Origin: a virus
Virus record (IMG/VR): IMGVR_UViG_3300035156_000214
Location: 1 to 38,895 of that record
DNA: 38,895 nt
Strand: one strand, 5' to 3'
Positions 20,794 to 38,895 of the stretch are shown in pieces. The position numbers and the translations under genes are program-made. Under the pieces are notes generated by a model. The model saw nothing but the letters and a program-made list of their open reading frames with translations, made no database searches and was not told where the DNA came from. Position 1 is the stretch's first letter, and every line of letters starts with the position of its first letter.

Positions 20794-21398
20794 GACGTCT
20801 TTCCCTTCGTTTCGCTCATCGCATGGTCGACCAGGTCGCGGCCCTTGTAGCCCGCGATGAGGGCGCGGGCTAGCGCCATCGTCCTGGCATCAGCCAACGC
20901 CTCATCGTTGCCACAGATGATTGGGAGAACCCACTCAAGGCGGGTGGTGTCGGCGCTGTCTGCCGGCAGGATTGAGCGTAAGCGAGCGACTTCGTCACGA
21001 ACGATATCCGCGCGGTGCTGTCCCAATTTCGCAAGCGGGAACCGGTTCTGCTGGAAGTCCGTCTGAATCCAATCGGTCTTGTCGATCCACTCCTTGTTAG
21101 CGACGTCGCCCGAGTGCATGAGCAGCACCCACTTATTTACAAAGGATGCGATATGCCCGAGGGCGTACCCGCCGATTTGCTGGCCGAACGTCTCGCGAAA
21201 TACGGCTTGGAAAAGCGGAGTGTCGATGCTATCCCCCAGGTGAGGCCGCGGAGCGTCGATGCACGGACAGCGCATGCCCCAAGAAATGCCGGTACCGAAA
21301 CAAGCCTCGCAGCCGGCAACAGCTCCCGCGTCGCATGCGCAAGCCTTGCCGAACGAGTGCCCTGTGCCGGAGCAGATGTCGCAATCGGCGCGGTTCAT
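20790..21398 (-). CDS. DnaJ-like zinc-motif protein, unknown function
   Basis: A 202-residue protein, start ATG 21398 in an ATGA overlap with the preceding gene. Residues 5-52 contain CDICSGTGHSFGKACACDAG, then CEACFGTGISWGMRCPC, i.e. CxxCxGxG repeats as in the DnaJ zinc domain, probably binding two zinc ions. The rest (~60-200) is helical, with FRETFGQQIGGYALGHIASF and DIVRDEVARLRSILPAD. There is no J-domain, so it is not a chaperone of the DnaJ type; similar cysteine-rich proteins occur in phages without known function. Confidence 0.82.
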   Translation of the reverse strand: MNRADCDICSGTGHSFGKACACDAGAVAGCEACFGTGISWGMRCPCIDAPRPHLGDSIDTPLFQAVFRETFGQQIGGYALGHIASFVNKWVLLMHSGDVANKEWIDKTDWIQTDFQQNRFPLAKLGQHRADIVRDEVARLRSILPADSADTTRLEWVLPIICGNDEALADARTMALARALIAGYKGRDLVDHAMSETKGKTS

Positions 21399-21775
21399 GC
21401 CTTCACCCCGCCAACGTGCTTCGCAAGGAAGGTCAGCAGCAGGTCCTGCAGGCCGTCGACGCATGCTTCGTCGCCGTTGTGCCAGCCTTTAGCGATAAGC
21501 TCCTGTGCGAACGTCTCGGCGGCGTCGCGGGTGAACTGGTGCGGCGTGCGTGCGCTGCCCATGACGTCGAGGAGCGATACCCACGGTCCGTGCTGGCGGT
21601 CGATCTTCATGCCGCCGTATGGGCTGGTCGTGTATCTGGTCAGGTCCGCGATCTGGACTATCACGCCGCTGAGGACCATCTTCTCGAGAACGGCGATACG
21701 GCGGAGGGCGCAGGGATACGGGTGTGCATCGGGGTAGCCGGATGCGGCCAACGGCATTTGGAAGGGCTTGTTCAT
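21395..21775 (-). CDS. Conserved-looking phage protein of unknown function
   Basis: A 126-residue protein from ATG 21775, which has GGAG 6-7 nt upstream. The frame remains open further upstream to a GTG at 21916 that touches the stop of the pseudo-helicase gene, so a 173-residue form is possible. Visible parts: ALRRIAVLEKMVLSGVIVQI near the start, then HGPWVSLLDVMGSARTPHQF and a C-terminal helix CVDGLQDLLLTFLAKHVGGV. No motif recognised. It overlaps the next gene by ATGA, so it is translated within the operon. Confidence 0.72.
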   Translation of the reverse strand: MNKPFQMPLAASGYPDAHPYPCALRRIAVLEKMVLSGVIVQIADLTRYTTSPYGGMKIDRQHGPWVSLLDVMGSARTPHQFTRDAAETFAQELIAKGWHNGDEACVDGLQDLLLTFLAKHVGGVKA

Positions 21776-21915
21776 GACTGGCTCCACAGGGAAGGAAAAA
21801 GCGCGATCGATCTTGCTCATAAGAGCGGCGCGATACTGGCCGAATGATTGGAAGGTGCAAGCATGCGAGTCATCGGCGATGACAGCCCGCAGCTGTAGCA
21901 GCTCGGGCGCAAGCA

Positions 21916-22650
21916 CTATGCGAACTCCCTGGCTTCGACCGCCAAACGCGGCGGCTCGCTAAACTGGTTGAAGTCCACCAGGTCGACGCCATGCGTGAGG
22001 TAATCGCGGAACGCGTCGATCCCCCCGTTCGCGATCTCATCTGCCACTGCGTCGTAAAAAATACGCTCGCGCTTCGGTGGAGCTTCGACAACAAACAGCC
22101 GCCGATTTGTTGCGCTCAGGGGGAGGAAGTTTTCAGACCCGGATAGGAAGACGAAATTGATCCGGTTGTCGATCTGGACGGGCTCAAGTCCCTTGCGGTT
22201 AAGTTCAATCTTTGGCGATGTTACGAACAAGCTTATCGCCGCCTTGGCAACCGGCTGTGTGGTATCGACAAGCGCAAAGCGGGCAGCGTGTGCCCAACCG
22301 TTAAACGCCCTGGATAAGTCATTTTGGTGAAGAACGCGGGCCGAATGAGAGTACATCGCGGCCATGACCATACCGAAGAACATCGTGCTTCCTGTGCCTG
22401 GCTGGCCGTTGACGTGGATGGCGTACTGCATCTTCGCGCCCGGATGCTGCAGGGGGTAGGCGAGCCACTTGACCAAGTAACGGTAAGTGCGCTGGTCGAA
22501 GTCGCACAGGTGCATGAGCAGCGCGTTGATGTTAGTGCAGTTGGCGGGCATGGTTTTCGGCGTCGGCGTGATGACACGGCTCACCGTGCGGATTACGGTC
22601 TTGGCCGAGGTAACGAGGCGCTTGATGAGTGCGTTTGTGCTTGGGTGCAT
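21916..22650 (-). CDS. Truncated D5/SF3 helicase paralog with dead Walker motifs
   Basis: A 244-residue protein, start ATG 22650 with GAGGATCATC before it. It is clearly similar over nearly its full length to residues ~590-800 of the phage's own primase-helicase. Examples are KWLAYPLQHPGAKMQYAIHV against RWLAYPLRNAGAKMETSIIM, and RINFVFLSGSENFLPLSATN against QMNFVFLSNELQPLALDKTD. The P-loop reads GQPGTGST (82-89), with Ser where the active copy has Lys, and the Walker B region reads LVDTTQ where the active copy has VADEVV, so the catalytic Glu is gone. The Toprim domain is absent. The frame is intact and coupled to its neighbours, so it is not simple decay. It may bind DNA or the active hexamer and block replication; this is inference. 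Confidence 0.85.
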   Translation of the reverse strand: MHPSTNALIKRLVTSAKTVIRTVSRVITPTPKTMPANCTNINALLMHLCDFDQRTYRYLVKWLAYPLQHPGAKMQYAIHVNGQPGTGSTMFFGMVMAAMYSHSARVLHQNDLSRAFNGWAHAARFALVDTTQPVAKAAISLFVTSPKIELNRKGLEPVQIDNRINFVFLSGSENFLPLSATNRRLFVVEAPPKRERIFYDAVADEIANGGIDAFRDYLTHGVDLVDFNQFSEPPRLAVEAREFA

Positions 22651-22666
22651 GATGATCCTCTGTGAG

Positions 22667-24688
22667 TTAGGCGGAAACTTCAGTGTTGGGTGCATCGACG
22701 GCGGCGCACTGGCGGCTGGCGAGCGCTTCGTCGCCGGTCTTTGGGAAGGGCCATGCGGCTGCGGGGGCTAATTTCTGTTTGGTCTTTGCCTTAGGAGCCT
22801 CGGCCACAGTCGCCAGCTGGTCGACGTCGCTGCTTTCTTGCCCGGCTGGAGGTGCCGCCTGCATTTCCGCCGGCGCTGGTGACTCGATCAGTACGAAGCC
22901 GTCCTGGGTGTACTTGAACCCGCAGGCCTTCGCGGCCCGCTCAAGCGCGCCAACTAGGCAGCCTTCTACCTTGATGATGTTTGCCAGTTCATTGATGCGG
23001 TTGGGTGCGGTTTTGATGAACTTGACCAGGTCGTCGTAGTCCATTCCGCTGATGTCGATAGGCGATGGGAAAAGCTCCTCGCGCACGGCATCAGGGTCAA
23101 TTCCTTCCGCTTTTGCCATCGAAAGGACTTCTGCGAAATTCTCGTCCGCGTGGCCGTTCTTAAGGTCCCAGTAGCCGACTTCAAGCGACTCGCCAACGAG
23201 CAGGTCAATAAGTATGAGCTGGATTTCTGGCAGCTCGGCCTGGTCGATGTGGGCGCAAATCGATTTGACGTTGGAGGTGTCGAAGGCGTAGACATCGCTG
23301 AGAAGGTCGTCAGGCAGTCTCAGCATGCCCGTGGCCAGCTTCGTGAATTCGCGTAGCGACTGCAGGCTGAACCCCGTTGCGCCCTTGGCGCGGAAGCGCT
23401 TGTAGAGTTCGACGCGGAAAGTGGTTTCGTCGTCAGCTTTTTGCGTCAATTCTTGTTGTGCCTTCGCAGCAGCAACTTGCTTCGCAGACGCCTCTTTCAT
23501 TGTCGGCGTTGGATTTGCTTGCCGCTCATCGCGCGCAGCGATTGATTCGCACACACCTGCTTTTTCGAGTGCAGATTGAAGCGCGGTCACCTCGTAGATT
23601 GGTACCAGCTTATCGCCACTTTTTTTGTAAGCCTTTACCGCCCCGCCGATACTAAGATCCGCCAAAACCTTGTGCAACGGCGCGTAGTAGTTCTGACTGT
23701 CGACAATGCGTTCTAGGCAGTGTCCTGCGTACTGGTCGGCCACAACGAATTTCTCCTCGCCGACAAATTCGCTCACTGCGTCACTGGTTTCAAGAACTGG
23801 AATCCCTTTCTTGTTCGCCTGGACGATGAGGCGTGCCGTCACTGCGCCCCGTTTCTCCGCGAAGCAATCGGGGTCCGTGCAGACGTCTGCACTTACGTCC
23901 ACAAACACTTCGGGCTGGTTGCCGGTTCGCTTGGGGCAGGCCGTGCAGCTGCCCGCAGCGGCAAGCAGTTTGATGTCGTTCAACTGGAATGGCGCGGTCG
24001 TCAAATCAAGCATGTAGCGCCCCTGGATGTGGGCGACCGCCTCGCGGTACGACATTGGGTGCCAATTCGGATTGTCCTCGCGTACGATTTCCTTGTAGGC
24101 CTGCAGTTGCAGCGCCGGCACGGCGATCCGGGCGATGATCAACGCCGTCGACGGGGAGATTTTGTCGTTCAGGAACTGTTCGCGAACCTCGGTCGTCAAC
24201 GCGCACAGCTTGAGCCGGCCATAGACATAGGCTTTGCTTTTCTTGATTTCTTCGGCCAGTTGGTCTGCGTTGTAGCCGTGAGTGAGCATCAGTTGCTCAT
24301 ACCCGGTGGCCTCCTCCATTGCATGCGGGTCTTCGCGCTGCAGGTTTTCGAGAATGCGAATCTTCGCGGCCTGGAGGTCCGACAGTGGCCGCACCATAGT
24401 TGGGATGGTGGTCAGCCCGGCGATCTTCGACGCGCGGTAGCGCCGCTCACCGGCTACGATCTCGAACGGCTCCGGCTGCGCCTCGGTCGGCGTAACTGGG
24501 CGGATCAGAATGGGCTGCGCGACACCGTCAGCCTTGATGCTCGCGGCCAGCTCCCGCAGGGCGGCTTCGTTGAACCGCTTGCGGTTGTCGGGCGAAATGC
24601 GGATCTGGTCAATTTGGCTGATGCGGAACTCGCCGTCGGGTGCGACTTCGACAGTTGCGATTGCGTTTTTGTTGTTAGATTTTTTCAT
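22667..24688 (-). CDS. ParB-like partition/DNA-binding protein (no ParA partner)
   Basis: A 673-residue protein, about twice the length of chromosomal ParB. Residues ~20-120 are the ParB N-terminal CTP-binding domain (QIDQIRISPDNRKRFNEAAL, GERRYRA at 80-86, ENLQREDPHAMEEA at 114-126). Residues ~127-200 contain the helix-turn-helix (ADQLAEEIKKSKAYVYGRLK). A cysteine cluster follows near 245-285 (GSCTACPKRTGNQPEVF, then VCTDPDCFAEKRG). The long C-terminal part is acidic and helical, with no recognised domain. No ParA-type ATPase is encoded. Copy 3 of the dispersed palindrome lies in its coding sequence. ATG 24688 has GGGA upstream. Likely role: site-specific DNA-binding and regulation, maybe spreading on DNA; partition is unproven. 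Confidence 0.88.
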   Translation of the reverse strand: MKKSNNKNAIATVEVAPDGEFRISQIDQIRISPDNRKRFNEAALRELAASIKADGVAQPILIRPVTPTEAQPEPFEIVAGERRYRASKIAGLTTIPTMVRPLSDLQAAKIRILENLQREDPHAMEEATGYEQLMLTHGYNADQLAEEIKKSKAYVYGRLKLCALTTEVREQFLNDKISPSTALIIARIAVPALQLQAYKEIVREDNPNWHPMSYREAVAHIQGRYMLDLTTAPFQLNDIKLLAAAGSCTACPKRTGNQPEVFVDVSADVCTDPDCFAEKRGAVTARLIVQANKKGIPVLETSDAVSEFVGEEKFVVADQYAGHCLERIVDSQNYYAPLHKVLADLSIGGAVKAYKKSGDKLVPIYEVTALQSALEKAGVCESIAARDERQANPTPTMKEASAKQVAAAKAQQELTQKADDETTFRVELYKRFRAKGATGFSLQSLREFTKLATGMLRLPDDLLSDVYAFDTSNVKSICAHIDQAELPEIQLILIDLLVGESLEVGYWDLKNGHADENFAEVLSMAKAEGIDPDAVREELFPSPIDISGMDYDDLVKFIKTAPNRINELANIIKVEGCLVGALERAAKACGFKYTQDGFVLIESPAPAEMQAAPPAGQESSDVDQLATVAEAPKAKTKQKLAPAAAWPFPKTGDEALASRQCAAVDAPNTEVSA
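23877..23892. repeat. Dispersed palindrome, copy 3 (exact), inside the ParB-like gene
   Basis: GTGCAGACGTCTGCAC. On the minus strand it encodes part of the Cys-cluster peptide SADVCTD. Because that peptide looks conserved in such proteins, this copy alone could be a coding coincidence; the other five copies cannot be explained that way. Confidence 0.85.
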
Positions 24689-24746: not shown

Positions 24747-25016
24747 ATGGCAGAACTGTCGATGTCGTATTCAAAATTGAATCAGCAGGCATCCGAAACG
24801 GCTGAGAGCTACTTGTTCCGTGCTATCGCATCGGTAGAAGCCGTGATGGGGGAGGGTGCGGCAGCCAAATATCCTGCGATCGTGGCCGCCGTTATCGCTG
24901 CGGCGGCAAGCGACTACGCGGCGGCGATGATCAGTCATCGGTTGGTGCCTGCGCTGGACGACGTTTCGGCGGCGATCGGGGGCGTTGCCGATGCTATCTC
25001 CGTCGCCGATGCGTGA
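24747..25016 (+). CDS. Small Ala-rich protein, divergent from the ParB-like gene
   Basis: An 89-residue protein on the + strand, start ATG 24747 with AAGGGAA upstream. It begins MAELSMSYSKLNQQASETAE and is helical, with a hydrophobic Ala/Ile/Val core (AIVAAVIAAAASDYAAAMIS). The composition and codon pattern look coding. It is read against the surrounding leftward operon, starts 58 bp from the divergent ParB-like start, and overlaps the next leftward gene by 82 bp at the 3' ends. Function is unknown. The intergenic strip 24689-24746 probably holds its promoter. Confidence 0.6.
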   Translation: MAELSMSYSKLNQQASETAESYLFRAIASVEAVMGEGAAAKYPAIVAAVIAAAASDYAAAMISHRLVPALDDVSAAIGGVADAISVADA

Positions 25017-25572: not shown

Positions 25573-25737
25573 TTAGTCCGCAATGCCCGGCTGTTTGGCA
25601 GGCGCGGGAGTGACGGTGACTGCGCATGCCCCAAAGCGTTCTAGGGCGTTCATCAGAACGGCGGCGCTATCGGTGCCGATGGCGGAGTACGTAAAGCGGG
25701 AGCGCTCCGTCCGTACTTGCACAACGAACGCGCTCAT
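25573..25737 (-). CDS. Small protein, 54 aa
   Basis: A short gene fitted exactly between its neighbours: its ATG (25737) overlaps the stop of the P-loop gene as ATGA, and its stop lies two bases before the next ATG at 25570. It begins MSAFVVQVRTERSRFTYSAI and continues with AVLMNALERFGACAVTVTPA. The alternating strands and one helix suggest a small alpha-beta protein. No family recognised. Coupled starts on both sides make it likely real. Confidence 0.72.
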   Translation of the reverse strand: MSAFVVQVRTERSRFTYSAIGTDSAAVLMNALERFGACAVTVTPAPAKQPGIAD

Positions 25738-26111
25738 GCTGGCTCACCAGCGACAAACGGGATCAGAGCGCAATGTGCTAAATGTGGGTCGCCGAGTGGC
25801 TGCTGGCACTCGATGCATTTTGATGGGCTGCGGCTGATAGGCCGAGGAGCAACCGGGTGAGGGAGCTTAATGCCGGCAATTTTCGCAGCACTGTAAAAGT
25901 CGACGGAGCCGTCGTGCGGGTGGTTCGTTAGTACGATGGAGTCATCGTCCACCTTGCCGCCGGGTATCCAGTTATCGACGATTCGCGTTTTGCCGAAATG
26001 GGCCGCAAGCGCTTTTGCGTACGTAGATTTGCCGCACCCGGACTCACCATAGATGACGATCCCGGTGGATGCGGCTTGTGGAAGAGACGTGTATGCTTGC
26101 GTGTATGACAT
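25734..26111 (-). CDS. Small P-loop NTPase with zinc-like tail; first gene of the leftward operon
   Basis: A 125-residue protein from ATG 26111 (GGAAATCACGA before it). Residues ~17-26 hold a perfect Walker A motif (YGESGCGKST). After it come FGKTRIVDNWIPGGKVDDDS and IVLTNHPHDG, a short nucleotide-kinase-like pattern common to small phage ATP-binding proteins. The C-terminal part has CIECQQPLGDPHLAHC (CxxC...HxxHC), which may bind zinc. It is much smaller than a complete AAA+ or kinase domain, so it may act with a partner. It is directly under the predicted leftward promoter and operator at 26148-26175, like lambda N. Confidence 0.83.
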   Translation of the reverse strand: MSYTQAYTSLPQAASTGIVIYGESGCGKSTYAKALAAHFGKTRIVDNWIPGGKVDDDSIVLTNHPHDGSVDFYSAAKIAGIKLPHPVAPRPISRSPSKCIECQQPLGDPHLAHCALIPFVAGEPA

Positions 26112-26147
26112 TCGTGATTTCCATTCATTTCTTGATTGAATGGAAGA

Positions 26148-26175
26148 ATAATACACGAATGTATAAACAATTCAA
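26148..26175 (-). promoter_or_regulatory. Predicted leftward early promoter (PL-like)
   Basis: On the minus strand: -35 TTGAAT (26175-26170), 16-bp spacer, -10 TATTAT (26153-26148). The operator-like site at 26151-26164 lies in the spacer and over the -10, so repressor binding would block it. It would drive the operon from the P-loop gene to the excisionase. Confidence 0.62.
26151..26164. promoter_or_regulatory. Operator-like site O4 (leftward promoter)
   Basis: ATAC-ACGAAT-GTAT, the same ATAC-N6-GTAT dyad as in the repressor/cro intergenic region about 1 kb away. The sharing of the motif between the two control regions is typical of phage operators. Confidence 0.7.
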
Positions 26176-26237
26176 TGCACAGATGCATAAATTGTGGCGT
26201 TATTGCTCGCCCGCTAGATTCGAGACGGCAGGAAAGG

Positions 26238-26522
26238 TCAGAACGGCAGTGCGGGCTCCGGAATCGGCGTTGAGAGATCAAGCGTCTCTAGTTGCAAGTT
26301 CTCGAGCTGGATTAAGGCGAGAAGGACGTGCGTTTCAAAAGGGGCGTACGCTCTTAAACCATTGTCCTCGATAGAAACTAGCATAACGGGCACTGCAGGG
26401 CGTTGGCGTTGAATTTTGTCGATCATGGCGGGGCCGGTCTCAGGCGTCGTAAATTTGGACGGAACTATCGCGATCAATATCGGCGCTCCATACGACGTAA
26501 CCTCAGCAACGCTTACGATCAC
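26238..26522 (-). CDS. Small gene coupled to the repressor (rex position)
   Basis: A 94-residue protein whose GTG start overlaps the repressor stop (GTGA at 26519-26522), so it should be co-translated with the repressor in a lysogen. It begins MIVSVAEVTSYGAPILIAIV; the middle reads VPVMLVSIEDNGLRAYAPFE followed by LLALIQLENLQ, and the end is acidic and Pro-rich (STPIPEPALPF). No known family. The position, between repressor and leftward promoter, is that of the rex genes of lambda, where lysogenic conversion or exclusion genes are commonly found. The function is inference. Confidence 0.72.
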   Translation of the reverse strand: MIVSVAEVTSYGAPILIAIVPSKFTTPETGPAMIDKIQRQRPAVPVMLVSIEDNGLRAYAPFETHVLLALIQLENLQLETLDLSTPIPEPALPF

Positions 26523-27214
26523 TCAACGTCCATTTCCATGCGAACAACTCTGCCGAGTACTCGGGAGTCGTTGTCTACAGCGCGGCGGCCGTATTCTGGT
26601 AGGGGATTGTCCGATGCGAGATACCACTGTCCTGCGTGGCGTTCCATTCGTTTTACCATCGGTCGTCCGTTGTGGTTCACGGCAAACAGCTTGCCGTCTG
26701 CAGGGAGGATATTGGTTCGGTTCGCAACAATTATCGTCCCATCGGGAATTGTTGGGTACATGCTTTGGCCGCTTGCCTTGAAGGCAAACAAGTCGCCGGG
26801 GGCCATCCTTTTCGAGCGTAGCCATTCAACAGGAAGGCTAAGTGACACTTCCTCCTCATATTCCCAATCCGCGTCTACGCCATCAACGCCCAGGTAGACC
26901 TGTCGCTTTAGCATTCGGATCCCAATGAACTGTCCCTCGCCGTCGCCGTCACCGGACTCAACTTTGATGATCCCTCCGACGCCTGCATCGCTTTGCTTTT
27001 CCATTGGGCCAATGCCTTCATAGAGCCATTGGAACGAAACGCCACAGGCATCAGCTAACAGCTTGATTGTGTTGCCCGACGGACTTTTCTTGGCCGTGTC
27101 CTTCAAGATCCGGCTAATTGTCGGCTGTGGGATCGTCGCGGCATCTGCCAACGATTGTTGGTTGAGAAAGCCTGCCCACTGCATGGCCTGTTCGAGTCTG
27201 TGTCCTATTGTCAT
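26519..27214 (-). CDS. CI/LexA-like phage repressor (HTH plus S24 peptidase)
   Basis: A 231-residue repressor. Residues ~8-60 form the helix-turn-helix domain (NQQSLADAATIPQPTISRIL). The C-terminal part (~95-231) is an S24 peptidase with nucleophile Ser151 in the signature FKASGQSMYPTIPDGT and the general base Lys188 (PMVKRM). An Ala77-Gly78 in the linker is a candidate self-cleavage site, so RecA-dependent SOS induction is expected. The start is ATG 27214; the frame extends upstream but ATG 27214 lies six bases behind the predicted -10 TATATT, suggesting a leaderless message as for lambda cI. It represses both early promoters through the ATAC-N6-GTAT sites. Confidence 0.93.
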   Translation of the reverse strand: MTIGHRLEQAMQWAGFLNQQSLADAATIPQPTISRILKDTAKKSPSGNTIKLLADACGVSFQWLYEGIGPMEKQSDAGVGGIIKVESGDGDGEGQFIGIRMLKRQVYLGVDGVDADWEYEEEVSLSLPVEWLRSKRMAPGDLFAFKASGQSMYPTIPDGTIIVANRTNILPADGKLFAVNHNGRPMVKRMERHAGQWYLASDNPLPEYGRRAVDNDSRVLGRVVRMEMDVE

Positions 27215-27220
27215 TGCGGG

Positions 27221-27249
27221 AATATACGCCCGTGTATAGGCAGGTACAA
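27221..27249 (-). promoter_or_regulatory. Predicted repressor promoter (PRM-like), leaderless
   Basis: On the minus strand: -35 TTGTAC (27249-27244), 17-bp spacer, -10 TATATT (27226-27221). The start codon follows six bases later, so transcription would begin at or next to the ATG. Operator O1 overlaps the -10 and spacer, which permits auto-repression or Cro repression. Confidence 0.62.
27224..27237. promoter_or_regulatory. Operator-like site O1
   Basis: ATAC-GCCCGT-GTAT, nearest the repressor gene and overlapping its predicted -10. By analogy to lambda OR3 it would shut off the repressor gene. Confidence 0.68.
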
Positions 27250-27255
27250 CACCGC

Positions 27256-27269
27256 ATACATTTAGGTAT
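27256..27269. promoter_or_regulatory. Operator-like site O2
   Basis: ATAC-ATTTAG-GTAT, 32 bp (about three helical turns) from O1. It abuts the predicted -35 of the rightward promoter. Confidence 0.68.
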
Positions 27270-27295
27270 TGCATAAATATTCGTTCGTGTATAAA
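27269..27295 (+). promoter_or_regulatory. Predicted rightward early promoter (PR-like)
   Basis: -35 TTGCAT (27269-27274), a short 15-bp spacer, -10 TATAAA (27290-27295). O2 touches the -35 and O3 covers the -10. The cro start lies only 4-10 bp downstream, so this message may also be leaderless or nearly so. The short spacer lowers confidence. Confidence 0.45.
27279..27292. promoter_or_regulatory. Operator-like site O3
   Basis: ATTC-GTTCGT-GTAT, one mismatch from the dyad. Its extended sequence (ATATTCGTTCGTGTATA) matches O1 (ATATACGCCCGTGTATA) at most positions. Confidence 0.6.
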
Positions 27296-27298
27296 GTC

Positions 27299-27541
27299 AT
27301 GCTCATGGACAAAGACATCTCTACCCTGCTCAGGGAAATTAAGGATATTTCAAAGTTGAGCGAGCCACGCATAGCGGAGCAGCTTGGCACTTCTCAACCG
27401 ACAGTGAATCGGATCCTTAACGGCCAGGGAGACTGTAAGGGTCGGACGTTCAAGGCTATTGCGGAGATGCACGCCAGAGTAGTTGGCGCTTCTGCGATTA
27501 GCGCAGTCGCTGAACAGCGAGATAGTCCGCCCGCTACCTAA
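27299..27541 (+). CDS. Cro-like regulator
   Basis: An 80-residue protein divergent from the repressor; ATG 27299 or the second ATG at 27305. It has a helix-turn-helix at about residues 18-45 (SEPRIAEQLGTSQPTVNRIL), followed by NGQGDCKGRTFKAIAEMHAR. The recognition helix residues QPTVNRIL are similar to QPTISRIL of the repressor, which supports binding of the same operators. It is the first rightward early gene. It would turn down repressor synthesis during lytic growth. Confidence 0.88.
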   Translation: MLMDKDISTLLREIKDISKLSEPRIAEQLGTSQPTVNRILNGQGDCKGRTFKAIAEMHARVVGASAISAVAEQRDSPPAT

Positions 27542-28170: not shown

Positions 28171-28610
28171 GTACCGTCCTCGACGGCCCTCGCGCCGGCA
28201 GCCGCGCCTTCATGGCGTTGAAAAAATTGAACGACATGGGCGGGCAGGCCAGCGTTGCCGAGTGGATGCGGTTTTGCGCATGGGATATCACTGTCAAGTC
28301 GTTTCGCGCCGAGTGCGTCGATAAGCTATTGGTCCGCATGAAGTTGTTTGCGCGGGGCGACATCTACTTCATCAGCGACGACGGCATGATCCACCTCGGG
28401 CTTTCCCCCGACGCGCCGCGCAGCGCGCCGCACGGCTTGGTCCCCGCTCCCCAGGCGCCAGCGCAGCGGCCCCTGCGATCGCAGAACAAGGTGCGGCTGC
28501 AGGTAATGCGTGAGGGAGCGTTTGACTATATGGCCATACCGTCATTGCACGGCAGCGTCCGCGTTGAACACAAGACCAGCCTCGCGATCGCCGGAGTGCA
28601 GCAAGGATGA
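28167..28610 (+). CDS. Small early protein, possible winged-helix
   Basis: A 147-residue protein, ATG 28167 coupled to the YmfL-type gene (ATGA). Residues ~10-75 look like a small winged-helix (SRAFMALKKLNDMGGQASVA, EWMRFCAWDITVKSFRAECV, LFARGDIYFISDDGMIHLGL). The remainder is Pro-rich, then a strand-rich tail. It is located immediately before the primase-helicase gene and coupled to it by ATGA (28607). A role in replication initiation (DnaA/O-like or helicase loader) is possible but not shown by a motif. Confidence 0.75.
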   Translation: MSTVLDGPRAGSRAFMALKKLNDMGGQASVAEWMRFCAWDITVKSFRAECVDKLLVRMKLFARGDIYFISDDGMIHLGLSPDAPRSAPHGLVPAPQAPAQRPLRSQNKVRLQVMREGAFDYMAIPSLHGSVRVEHKTSLAIAGVQQG

Positions 28611-31378
28611 GCGACGTCGGGCAAGTCATCGCTCAGATGGTCGATCACGACATGCCCCAGCTGCCAGCTGGGCATCCGAAGCTCGACGGGAAATTTAACA
28701 GGTTCGGCAAGGGCAAGAAGGCTTGGTACATCCTGCGCGAAATGACGCTCAAGTCTGGCCGCGTCGTCGTAACCGGCGCGTTCGGCTTCTTCCAGGGCGA
28801 GAACCGCAATACAGTGCCTGTCACCGTCGACATGCAGGCGATGACGGAAGAGGAGAAGTCTGAGTTCTCCCGGAAGCAGCGCGCCACCGAAAAGGACGAG
28901 GCGGAAAAGAAGGCAACCGCAGCGCGCCTTGCTGCTGGCCGAGCGCGCGACTGGTGGAAGAAGGCGGAAGCCAACCCGGTTGAGCATCCATACCTGGTGC
29001 GCAAGCAGGTCGATCCGATGGGTCTGCGCGTAACCAGTGATGGCATTCTGCTGATCCCATTAATGCGCGACGGCCAGTTAGTCGGCCTGCAGAAGATCGA
29101 CAGGGCAGGTGAGAAGCGCTTCAGCGATGGCATGGAAGCGGCGGGTGCATCGCACACGCTTGGCTCGTTTGTAGGCGCAGACGTGATCGCGGTAGGTGAG
29201 GGTTACGCGACCGGCGCAAGCGCTCGCATGAGCGTTAGCGCCATGATCGACCTGCCCGTCGCGCTGGCCTTCAGTGCCGGCCAGATCATGGCGGTAGCGA
29301 AGCGTTTGCGCGTGAGCTACCCGGATGCGCATTTGCTCTTCCTCGCTGACGATGATTACCAGTTGACCCAACGATACGTCGAGCGCTTGCGCGAGGAATT
29401 CAAAGTATCCGCGCTGGTGGCGATCGATGGGCAGCCGCACCTGGTGCTGGCCGACGACGCCGCCGAAGTGACAGTTACCGCATGGTGGCGCACCGATCCG
29501 CAGGGTATCCGCTACATCGAGGCCGACATCCGCCGCGGTCGTATCGTCCGCAACTACAAGTACCACAATGCAGGCGTGGCCGCGTGCCACGCAGCCGCAG
29601 CCGCAGTCGGGAATGCCTCCGTTGTCATGCCCCTCTTCAAGGAACGGGGCGACCTCAAGCTCACCGATTTCAACGACCTGCACGCGGTGGAGGGCATCGA
29701 AGCAGTCGAGGCGCAGATCGCGCTTGCCCTTCTCGCTGCGAAGCAGCCTAAACTTGATTCCCCTGCTTCTGGTCGGGCCGGGGACCAGGAGGCTCTTGTC
29801 CTTCCTGCTGCGCAGCAGCCCGAAAATGGTTCCCCCGCCCCCCTCGCGGCGGCAGCCGCCCCTGTTCGCGCTGCTTTGTCGCTTGTCGCCCCTCCGGTCC
29901 CCCCTCCCCCCGGCGCGAAGCAGCCGCCTGAAGGCGACGATCCGCCAGCGGATTTTAACGAGCGTTTCGACTCAGAACAGGCGTATGAAGGCCCGTTCTC
30001 GGTCCCTGGTGCGCCTGACGGCCCGGGGGAGGGGGGCGAAGACGAAAAGTCGCGGAAAAAGGATAAGCCTAAAAAGATCTACGGGCAGGCGCACTGGGAC
30101 CAGGTTGACGATGTGCTGGAGAACTTCATTTTGATCTACGGCGAGGACCTGGTGTGGGACTGCCGGCAGCGGATGCTGATGAAGCTATCGGCTATGCGCA
30201 CGATCGTGCAGAACAATGACGTGATGAAGTTTTGGGGCGGTGAGGCACGTAAGTGGGTCTTGAAAAAGAACATCGTGTTTGACCCGAGCGAGACGCCCAG
30301 TCCGGCCAAGAGCGGCCCTACTGCCACGGTCAACCTATTCAGCGGTTGGAAGATGATGCCCAAGAAGGGCAACTGCATCCAGATCCTGACGCTTCTGTCG
30401 CACCTGTGCAACGGCGTCGAGGAAATGGAGACGTGGATCGCGCGCTGGCTTGCCTACCCGCTGCGCAATGCCGGCGCGAAGATGGAGACCTCCATCATCA
30501 TGCACGGCGACGAAGGGTCCGGTAAAAATTTCTTCTTCGAGAAGGTCGTCAAGGCCATCTATGGCGAATACGGCTACGTCATCGGCAATGCGCAGCTGGA
30601 GTCGAACTTCAACGACTGGGCCTCGATGAAGCTGTTTATGGTGGCAGATGAAGTGGTCACGCGGGCCGAACTGAAGCAGATGAAGGGGAAGCTCAAGTAC
30701 CTGGTATCGGGCGACACCGTCATCGTCAACCCGAAGGGGCTGCCCGAGCATAGCGAAGCAAACCAGATGAACTTCGTCTTCTTGTCAAACGAGCTGCAGC
30801 CGCTTGCGCTCGACAAGACTGACCGTCGCTACCTGGTCGTCTGGACCCCGCCAGCGCTCGACCGGAGTTTCTACGTCGGCGTCGCCAACGAGATCGCGGC
30901 GGGCGGCATCGAGGCGTTCTATCACTACCTGGTGCATGAGCTGGATATGGGGGACTTCAACGAACACACGAAGCCGCTCTACAACAAGGCCAAGGACGCG
31001 CTGATCGAAAAGAGCCTTGCTCCCGCCGAGCGCTTTTATCGCGAGTGGTCCAAGGGCCTGCTGCCGCTCCCATTCGTCACCTGCAGCGTGAACCGGCTGT
31101 ATGAGGCGTTCCAAATCTGGTGCGGCCGCTCGGGCGAGTCGAAGTACACGTCATTGACGATGTTTAGCCCTGCAGTCGAGCGATACGCGGGCGGCGAACT
31201 CAAGAAGGCGACGATCAAGTACGACCTGGCCGAGAGCGTCAAACAGCGCTACGTGTTCTGCGTGGGCACTCCTCCGGTCGACAAGACGCTTCGGGAGTGG
31301 GCAGAGGGCGCTGCTGGCGTGTTCGAAAGCGCCTTCAAGCTGTATCGCAATCGGGATGGCAGCAATGTTGAGACTTAA
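28607..31378 (+). CDS. Primase-helicase: Toprim domain plus SF3/D5 helicase
   Basis: A 923-residue replication protein. The Toprim primase part spans about residues 90-390, with Glu198 in AVGEGYATGAS and the acidic triplet Asp248-250 in LFLADDDYQ. A Pro/Ala-rich linker (~390-480) joins the helicase part (~500-830, DUF5906/D5-like), with Walker A GDEGSGKN (634-641), Walker B FMVADEVV (Asp681-Glu682) and the sensor region MNFVFLSNEL then KTDRRYLVVW. It should synthesise primers and unwind DNA at the phage origin. A truncated, motif-dead copy of the helicase part is encoded at 21916-22650 on the other strand. The repeats behind this gene (31366-31632) are the likely site where it starts. Confidence 0.94.
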   Translation: MSDVGQVIAQMVDHDMPQLPAGHPKLDGKFNRFGKGKKAWYILREMTLKSGRVVVTGAFGFFQGENRNTVPVTVDMQAMTEEEKSEFSRKQRATEKDEAEKKATAARLAAGRARDWWKKAEANPVEHPYLVRKQVDPMGLRVTSDGILLIPLMRDGQLVGLQKIDRAGEKRFSDGMEAAGASHTLGSFVGADVIAVGEGYATGASARMSVSAMIDLPVALAFSAGQIMAVAKRLRVSYPDAHLLFLADDDYQLTQRYVERLREEFKVSALVAIDGQPHLVLADDAAEVTVTAWWRTDPQGIRYIEADIRRGRIVRNYKYHNAGVAACHAAAAAVGNASVVMPLFKERGDLKLTDFNDLHAVEGIEAVEAQIALALLAAKQPKLDSPASGRAGDQEALVLPAAQQPENGSPAPLAAAAAPVRAALSLVAPPVPPPPGAKQPPEGDDPPADFNERFDSEQAYEGPFSVPGAPDGPGEGGEDEKSRKKDKPKKIYGQAHWDQVDDVLENFILIYGEDLVWDCRQRMLMKLSAMRTIVQNNDVMKFWGGEARKWVLKKNIVFDPSETPSPAKSGPTATVNLFSGWKMMPKKGNCIQILTLLSHLCNGVEEMETWIARWLAYPLRNAGAKMETSIIMHGDEGSGKNFFFEKVVKAIYGEYGYVIGNAQLESNFNDWASMKLFMVADEVVTRAELKQMKGKLKYLVSGDTVIVNPKGLPEHSEANQMNFVFLSNELQPLALDKTDRRYLVVWTPPALDRSFYVGVANEIAAGGIEAFYHYLVHELDMGDFNEHTKPLYNKAKDALIEKSLAPAERFYREWSKGLLPLPFVTCSVNRLYEAFQIWCGRSGESKYTSLTMFSPAVERYAGGELKKATIKYDLAESVKQRYVFCVGTPPVDKTLREWAEGAAGVFESAFKLYRNRDGSNVET

Positions 31379-38572: not shown

Positions 38573-38895
38573 ATGAAGAAGAGCATCCAAGCAATGCGGG
38601 ACAAGAAGAACGCAATCGCAAAAGAAGCACGCAACATGATCGAGCAGAAGGGCGATCGCCGCTGGACGGCGGACGAACAGGCTTTGTTCGATAAAAAGGC
38701 CGACGAGATGGAAGAACTCGATCGCGACATCAGCAATGCGCAACGCCTCATGGACCAGGACGCGCAGGATCGCTTCGCCGACGTCGAGCAGTTCCGCATC
38801 ACGGACGCAAAGAAGGTGTCGCCGGCCCGCGCGGCGTTCGACAAGTTGCTGCGCAACGGCCCTGGTGCGTTGACGATGGAAGAGATTCAGATCGT
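38573..38895 (+). CDS. Major capsid protein, N-terminal part (continues at base 1)
   Basis: ATG 38573 is preceded by AAAGGGAAGAT. The first ~75 residues are charged and heptad-like (MKKSIQAMRDKKNAIAKEAR, then ADEMEELDRDISNAQRLMDQ), typical for the HK97-type N-terminal delta domain that serves as internal scaffold and is removed by the protease upstream. The frame runs off the end of the window and, after removing the 127-bp overlap, continues without interruption to 1022 (405 residues in total). Confidence 0.95.
   Translation, partial: MKKSIQAMRDKKNAIAKEARNMIEQKGDRRWTADEQALFDKKADEMEELDRDISNAQRLMDQDAQDRFADVEQFRITDAKKVSPARAAFDKLLRNGPGALTMEEIQI
38769..38895. repeat. Terminal overlap of a circular assembly (right copy)
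   Basis: Identical to bases 1-127; see the left copy. It should be removed once to obtain the circular genome. Confidence 0.95.

Follow-up and report, generated by a model that had tools for sequence, protein, structure and literature searches.

Why would a temperate phage keep a second SF3 helicase domain without ATP-handling residues beside a helicase that looks active? The window, the whole stretch of 38,895 nucleotides analysed here, carries a 127-base direct repeat at its termini (1-127 and 38769-38895) and thus represents a complete, circularly closed genome of 38,768 unique bases. It holds exactly two SF3 domains, one in a 923-aa primase-helicase and the other in a 244-aa protein (Table 1). 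The frame of the latter starts at an ATG (22650) preceded by an AGAGGA ribosome site and stops at 21916, and an alternative start at 22695 would give a 259-aa product overlapping the ParB gene. The initial annotation had matched the 244-aa protein to the helicase half of the 923-aa protein, and alignment with residues 582-790 bore this out with 39% identity over 209 aa (149 bits, E 5e-45). Both proteins are Pfam DUF5906, the 244-aa protein with 37.2 bits against a cut-off of 27.6. DUF5906 is the AAA+ helicase body of the NrS-1/D5 type (PMC9611036). An AF2 model built on a 16-row alignment reached a pLDDT of 83. Its best Foldseek matches in the PDB were the C-terminal ring of the NrS-1 helicase, D5/E5 and SaPI5 PriRep, and its best 50 BFVD matches were nearly all full-size helicases, the shortest being a nameless 305-aa entry. 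By both sequence and fold the 244-aa protein belongs to the SF3 DUF5906/NrS-1 domains, with the body alone present and neither the head nor the tail region of the NrS-1 ring.

The substitution of the Walker A Lys by Ser and the loss of the Walker B Glu were found as first described. The accompanying statement that just these two catalytic positions are lost has to be corrected, since the sensor-1 Asn of motif C is replaced as well (LSNE in the 923-aa helicase, LSGS in the 244-aa protein, that is SNE to SGS). What had been called retained sensor-like segments in an open frame holds for the frame and for the arginine finger, here NRR, and fails for the sensor-1 Asn. An invariant Asn at residue 165 was considered as sensor 1 and set aside, because the NrS-1 alignment and PCV2 Rep both put sensor 1 at SNE. 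The sensor-1 Asn follows beta-4, and the ATPase of PCV2 Rep is abolished by changes in Walker A, Walker B or sensor 1 (PMC8406172). None of the residues expected of an SF3 enzyme at these sites, the Walker A Lys, a complete Walker B acidic pair and the sensor-1 Asn, is present in the 244-aa protein; the SF3 arginine finger is.

Table 1. Features of the window and of segment-bearing proteins in related phages (L numbers)
Feature	Positions	Strand	Basis
Stand-alone pseudo-SF3 (DUF5906) helicase domain, 244 aa	21916-22650	-	homology, Pfam, AF2 fold
Degenerate Walker A, GQPGTGST (Lys to Ser, codon 22387-22389)	22384-22407	-	against GDEGSGKN in 923-aa helicase
Degenerate Walker B, DT for DE (LVDTTQ against VADEVV; Glu to Thr, codon 22261-22263)	22261-22266	-	alignment
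Pre-sensor-1 (DNA-binding) hairpin Lys, retained	22192-22194	-	aligned with NrS-1 'KN' hairpin (PMC7102993)
Motif C strand NFVFLSG; sensor-1 Asn to Gly (22138-22140)	22138-22158	-	alignment
Arginine-finger pair RR, retained (NrS-1 Arg555/Arg556)	22099-22104	-	alignment
Active-looking primase-helicase, 923 aa; homologous domain ~30350-30976; rightward operon	28607-31378	+	homology, Pfam
ParB-like protein (ParB_N and HTH), 673 aa; directly upstream, same operon	22667-24688	-	Pfam; neighbour in most relatives
173-aa 'SFGQYR' protein; GTG overlaps pseudo-helicase stop (TAGTG); conserved downstream neighbour	21395-21916	-	sequence
CI-like repressor	26519-27274	-	translation only: N-terminal helix-turn-helix-like region, C-terminal LexA-like
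Cro-like protein, divergent from CI	27299-27541	+	translation only
Three operator-like sites (27224-27237, 27256-27269, 27279-27292), ATACRnnnnYGTAT-like, between cI and cro	27224-27292		
Candidate leftward promoter pL overlapping operator OL ATACACGAATGTAT (26151-26164)	26148-26175	-	
Segment-only protein, 75 aa, ATGA-coupled	L010:8752-8979		
Segment-only protein	L123:2769-3440	-	
Segment-only protein, 93 aa, Cys-rich region (L169/L170)	L169:4775-5053	-	Pfam VapE E 1.5e-4
Segment C-terminal to DUF4031	L054:11749-12390		
Segment-only protein	L167:4696-5208	-	
Segment-only protein	L168:6183-6743	-	
Segment-only protein	L171:5630-6037		
Segment-bearing MNAFKNHT-family protein	L016:10712-11509		
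Segment-bearing MNAFKNHT-family protein	L024:9748-11370		
Segment-only protein	L078:9905-10621		
Segment-only protein (L032/L172)	L032:9741-10523		

To place the protein in a family, IMG/VR was scanned with both the 244-aa protein and its ParB-like neighbour, and about 800 Burkholderiales genomes (the family and order around Massilia) were searched; together this yielded 20 distinct stand-alone domains, about 235-280 aa long, from phages and prophages, the window's own included. The scan of genome contigs used a single, too strict pattern and yielded only two prophages. Named hosts are Massilia polaris and Duganella phyllosphaerae. One ORF (L124) was discarded as a spurious match. The typical locus runs from a ParB-like gene through the stand-alone to a 'GQYR' gene, with a full primase-helicase 3-6 kb off on the opposite strand; L090 and L125 have other genes upstream of the stand-alone and no adjoining ParB. 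The window's ParB-like protein has a long C-terminal region and is common to many temperate phages with SF3 helicases. The stand-alone is an accessory gene, as its absence from many related phages shows, and it is missing from the majority of phages that have ParB and the same helicase. Searches of cultured phages returned no match of at least 60% identity, the matches listed being primase/helicase genes or unannotated, and a near-DNA search found no relatives there. The stand-alone protein has no family of its own in PHROGs, Pfam, NCBIfam or PADLOC, and the PADLOC defence models gave no match for P0003, P0004 or P0005.

Comparison of the stand-alones with full-length helicases located the losses. 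The Walker B Glu is present in 29/29 full-length helicases vs 3/20 stand-alones (11 Gly, 5 Asp and 1 Thr in the others), the sensor-1 Asn in 28/28 vs 1/20, and the Walker A Lys in 29/29 vs 17/20, being Ser in the window, Ala in L006 and His in L126; the Fisher p values, uncorrected for kinship, are 2e-10, 2e-12 and 0.06, respectively. Because L003, the sister of the window's protein, keeps the Lys, the tree suggests that this residue was lost at least three times. Not one of the 20 combines Lys, Glu/Asp and Asn. Each position of the arginine pair (DRR/NRR), which aligns with NrS-1 Arg555/Arg556, is conserved in 19 of them, and the pre-sensor hairpin has Lys or Arg in 17. The most eroded member (L126:4370-5128, minus strand) has an unrecognisable Walker A and B and an intact arginine finger, and a VapE-type helicase lies alongside. 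A different arrangement was seen in L057 (6789-7391) and L059, where a 201-aa stand-alone VapE-type AAA+ domain ends just past the arginine finger, directly upstream of the ParB-like gene.

We then examined selection. All 20 stand-alone frames are open, none with an internal stop, and pairwise dN/dS ranged from 0.19 to 0.43, with ratios for distant pairs being rough as their synonymous sites are near saturation. The firmest pairs were L036/L038 (dS 0.56, ratio 0.20) and L034/L128 (dS 0.86). Where both members lack catalytic residues the ratio was 0.20 (L034/L128) and 0.26 (window/L006), so the dN/dS check proposed for the dead copy came out on the side of constraint. Since no stand-alone combines the three catalytic residues, yet the arginine finger persists in 19/20 with open frames and low ratios, a selected pseudo-ATPase family is well supported, and the initial proposal of a selected pseudo-enzyme gains 20 homologues of which none is catalytically intact. 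The feature that marks an AAA+ pseudo-ATPase subunit, a degenerate ATP site in a fold and open frame retained under selection, is present here.

The stand-alone had also been taken for a copy of the phage's own helicase. When 20 stand-alone domains and 29 full-length ones were placed in a maximum-likelihood tree, however, the stand-alones formed one clade (support 100/99), the split from the full-length domains being present in 200/200 bootstrap trees, and members of this clade also reside beside VapE-type helicases. L006 shares 93% identity with the window in the helicase domain, whereas identity to the window's stand-alone never exceeds 56% among its relatives. In one and the same set of phage pairs, identity is 72-86% between helicase halves and 34-53% between stand-alones, with ParB diverging at a rate resembling that of the stand-alone. 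The clade and this divergence indicate that the stand-alone is an old, fast-evolving, monophyletic paralogue and not a copy of the resident helicase, and the tree rules out a recent duplication.

An SF3 helicase was found in every bearer with enough sequence, including L090 and L125. Because most ParB-bearing phages carry one too, the link between stand-alone and SF3 helicase is suggestive only: 18/19 bearers vs 26/34 ParB-bearing records without the module had one (records >30 kb, counted by hand; p 0.13, not significant). VapE-type helicases accompany the stand-alones of L033, L036, L038 and L126, so the stand-alones are not tuned to one helicase type.

How might such a protein act? In ring-shaped AAA+ enzymes a subunit needs its neighbour's arginine finger for a complete ATP site, so a protein with the finger face and no ATP site of its own could enter or cap a ring. 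The clamp-loader delta-prime and similar AAA+ pseudo-ATPase subunits have a degenerate ATP site and a retained arginine finger used in trans; unlike the stand-alone, delta-prime is of another AAA+ clade and is an obligate cofactor, not a phage accessory gene. P4 Cnr, which contacts the alpha protein and is not known to be homologous to the helicase, offers a functional analogy only, as a small phage-type protein limiting SF3-driven replication. Cnr exerts copy-number control on an element with an SF3 primase-helicase (PMC8628076). The closest structural counterpart is the C-terminal helicase of NrS-1 polymerase (PDB 6k9c, 6k9e, 6lrb), which matches by DUF5906 profile (E 1.5e-21) and by fold (E 4e-11) and shares the Arg-Arg finger and the hairpin Lys. 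In contrast to the stand-alone, which judging from its sequence is the body alone with catalytic residues lost, NrS-1 has the Walker A Lys, the SNE sensor-1 Asn and a head and tail, forms a hexamer and unwinds DNA. Mutation of its finger residues Arg555 and Arg556 lowers NTPase activity 7- to 15-fold and abolishes unwinding (PMC7102993). The Walker A mutant K340H of the SF3 helicase AAV Rep has no ATPase activity, still forms oligomers and exerts a dominant-negative effect on replication (PMC4944284), but it is a laboratory mutant of a full helicase whereas the 244-aa protein is a natural separate gene. Phage 77 ORF104 inhibits the AAA+ loader DnaI by taking the position of a neighbouring protomer and inserting a Lys into the ATP site (PMC4887207). 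This small phage protein has no homology to the stand-alone and its target is a host helicase loader rather than an SF3 helicase; a basic residue placed in an AAA+ ATP site would nevertheless be the mode proposed here for the 244-aa protein.

From the K340H and ORF104 precedents and the need of NrS-1 for Arg555/Arg556, we favour action in trans at the SF3 subunit interface, a reading to which we give about even credence. With its arginine-finger face docked on the ATP site of a subunit of a full SF3 helicase, the protein would join or cap the ring and leave the resulting complex slowed, capped or poisoned, as with K340H or ORF104, two analogies that make dominant-negative action on a helicase ring plausible. 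Entry into the ring is not assured, because the head and tail regions are absent. The likeliest use would be control of SF3-driven replication in early lytic growth, either of the phage's own copy number or by interference with competing SF3-dependent elements; between own and rival helicase as target, and between brake and cofactor as role, we lean towards interference because the stand-alones co-reside with three helicase types and diverge fast. Purifying selection has preserved the fold and the arginine-finger pair, and in most cases also the P-loop and DNA hairpin, in genes of the early left arm that are co-encoded with a full SF3 helicase. These results suggest that a temperate phage family retains, beside a working helicase, a small second helicase domain that lacks a complete set of ATP-hydrolysis residues but still has the arginine finger reaching into a neighbouring subunit, and that this domain may regulate or jam ring helicases. 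If so, natural conserved paralogues resembling dominant negatives, and especially free arginine-finger segments, would be a simple route for phages to regulate or sabotage hexameric helicases, and such proteins might serve as natural interface inhibitors of SF3 enzymes.

Free segments of this kind were found in related phages as small proteins with only the motif-C strand and arginine finger (pattern hh[ST]G..D.L...DRRF), often directly behind ParB. Their bearers, of which L173 is a further one beyond those in Table 1, span at least nine distinct protein contexts by our count, often at the same left-arm position. In the MNAFKNHT family two members (L016 and L024) carry the segment and five others lack it. 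An HMM built from full-length helicases alone recovered about ten segment-only proteins at E <2e-3 among 12,495 non-helicase ORFs, and in reversed or shuffled control sets it found nothing better than E 0.07, which rules out chance matches. Loss of the sensor-1 Asn, mostly to Gly, is common to the stand-alones and most segment-only proteins; the latter keep the arginine-finger face without the DNA hairpin. They could be the minimal form of the same device. Tentatively, and with less confidence than for the interface action itself, the motif-C/arginine-finger segment may be a portable phage device, deployed as a dead stand-alone domain or grafted on unrelated small proteins (Cys-rich, DUF4031, coiled-coil-like or the 75-aa minimal form), that enters the SF3 subunit interfaces of the phage or its rival as an arginine-finger decoy.

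Alternatively, the stand-alone could be a positive cofactor, a non-catalytic subunit akin to a clamp-loader stator or a ring nucleator that donates its finger to assemble or load the phage helicase. Purifying selection, probable early lytic co-expression with replication and the mostly retained finger, pre-sensor hairpin and P-loop would all fit. We regard this as rather unlikely: most phages with ParB and the same helicase do without a stand-alone, the faster divergence of the stand-alones relative to the helicase halves would be odd for an obligate partner, and the segment-only versions could not form a subunit.

Repurposing for a role apart from helicases, as a DNA-binding or ParB-associated scaffold in segregation or transcription control, also seems unlikely, and slightly more so. 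It would account for the position directly downstream of ParB at nearly all loci, for the ParB-like divergence rate and for the conserved basic residue of the hairpin. However, the bearers without an adjoining ParB weaken the case for ParB as an obligate partner, and the segment-only relatives retain the arginine-finger face but lack the DNA hairpin.

That the stand-alone still works as an NTPase, using unusual catalytic residues, is very unlikely. The Walker A Lys of 17/20 members speaks for it, as does the acidic residue at the second Walker B position in 8/20, and SF3 enzymes can have Asp at this position, as in LTag Asp474 (PMC8406172). DE is kept in L047 and L092 and DD or ED in L014, L026, L031 and L088, but the sensor-1 Asn is missing from all six, which weakens the idea that some members are active, as it is from 19/20 overall; changes of this type abolish the PCV2 Rep ATPase, and the window's protein lacks all three residues. 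Least probable, and only barely credible, is a decaying duplicate without function: catalytic residues did erode at several independent points and copies are absent from many relatives, as decay had been expected to look, but the frameshifts expected with it did not appear in any of the 20 frames, and the dN/dS values, the finger, the conserved neighbours and the translational coupling rule it out.

The immunity region (26148-27292) is lambda-like, its operator-like sites comprising one at OL and three at OR. The OL site is the fourth and is perfect, and it overlaps the region's only promoter-like match (leftward, 26175-26148). Since promoter matches in the region were no more numerous than in shuffled sequence, the pL assignment rests on this operator overlap. 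By analogy with lambda pL/OL, the leftward genes as far as those for ParB, the pseudo-helicase and a small excisionase-like protein appear to be early lytic, CI-repressed and silent in the prophage. A prophage immunity role of the 244-aa protein is therefore unlikely, and the earlier suggestion that it blocks superinfecting relatives is disfavoured as far as action from the prophage is concerned. Because a small gene in the opposite orientation (about 24748-25016) separates pL from ParB, ParB may have its own promoter. The first gene of the leftward operon (25734-26156, minus strand) encodes a small P-loop protein (GESGCGKST).
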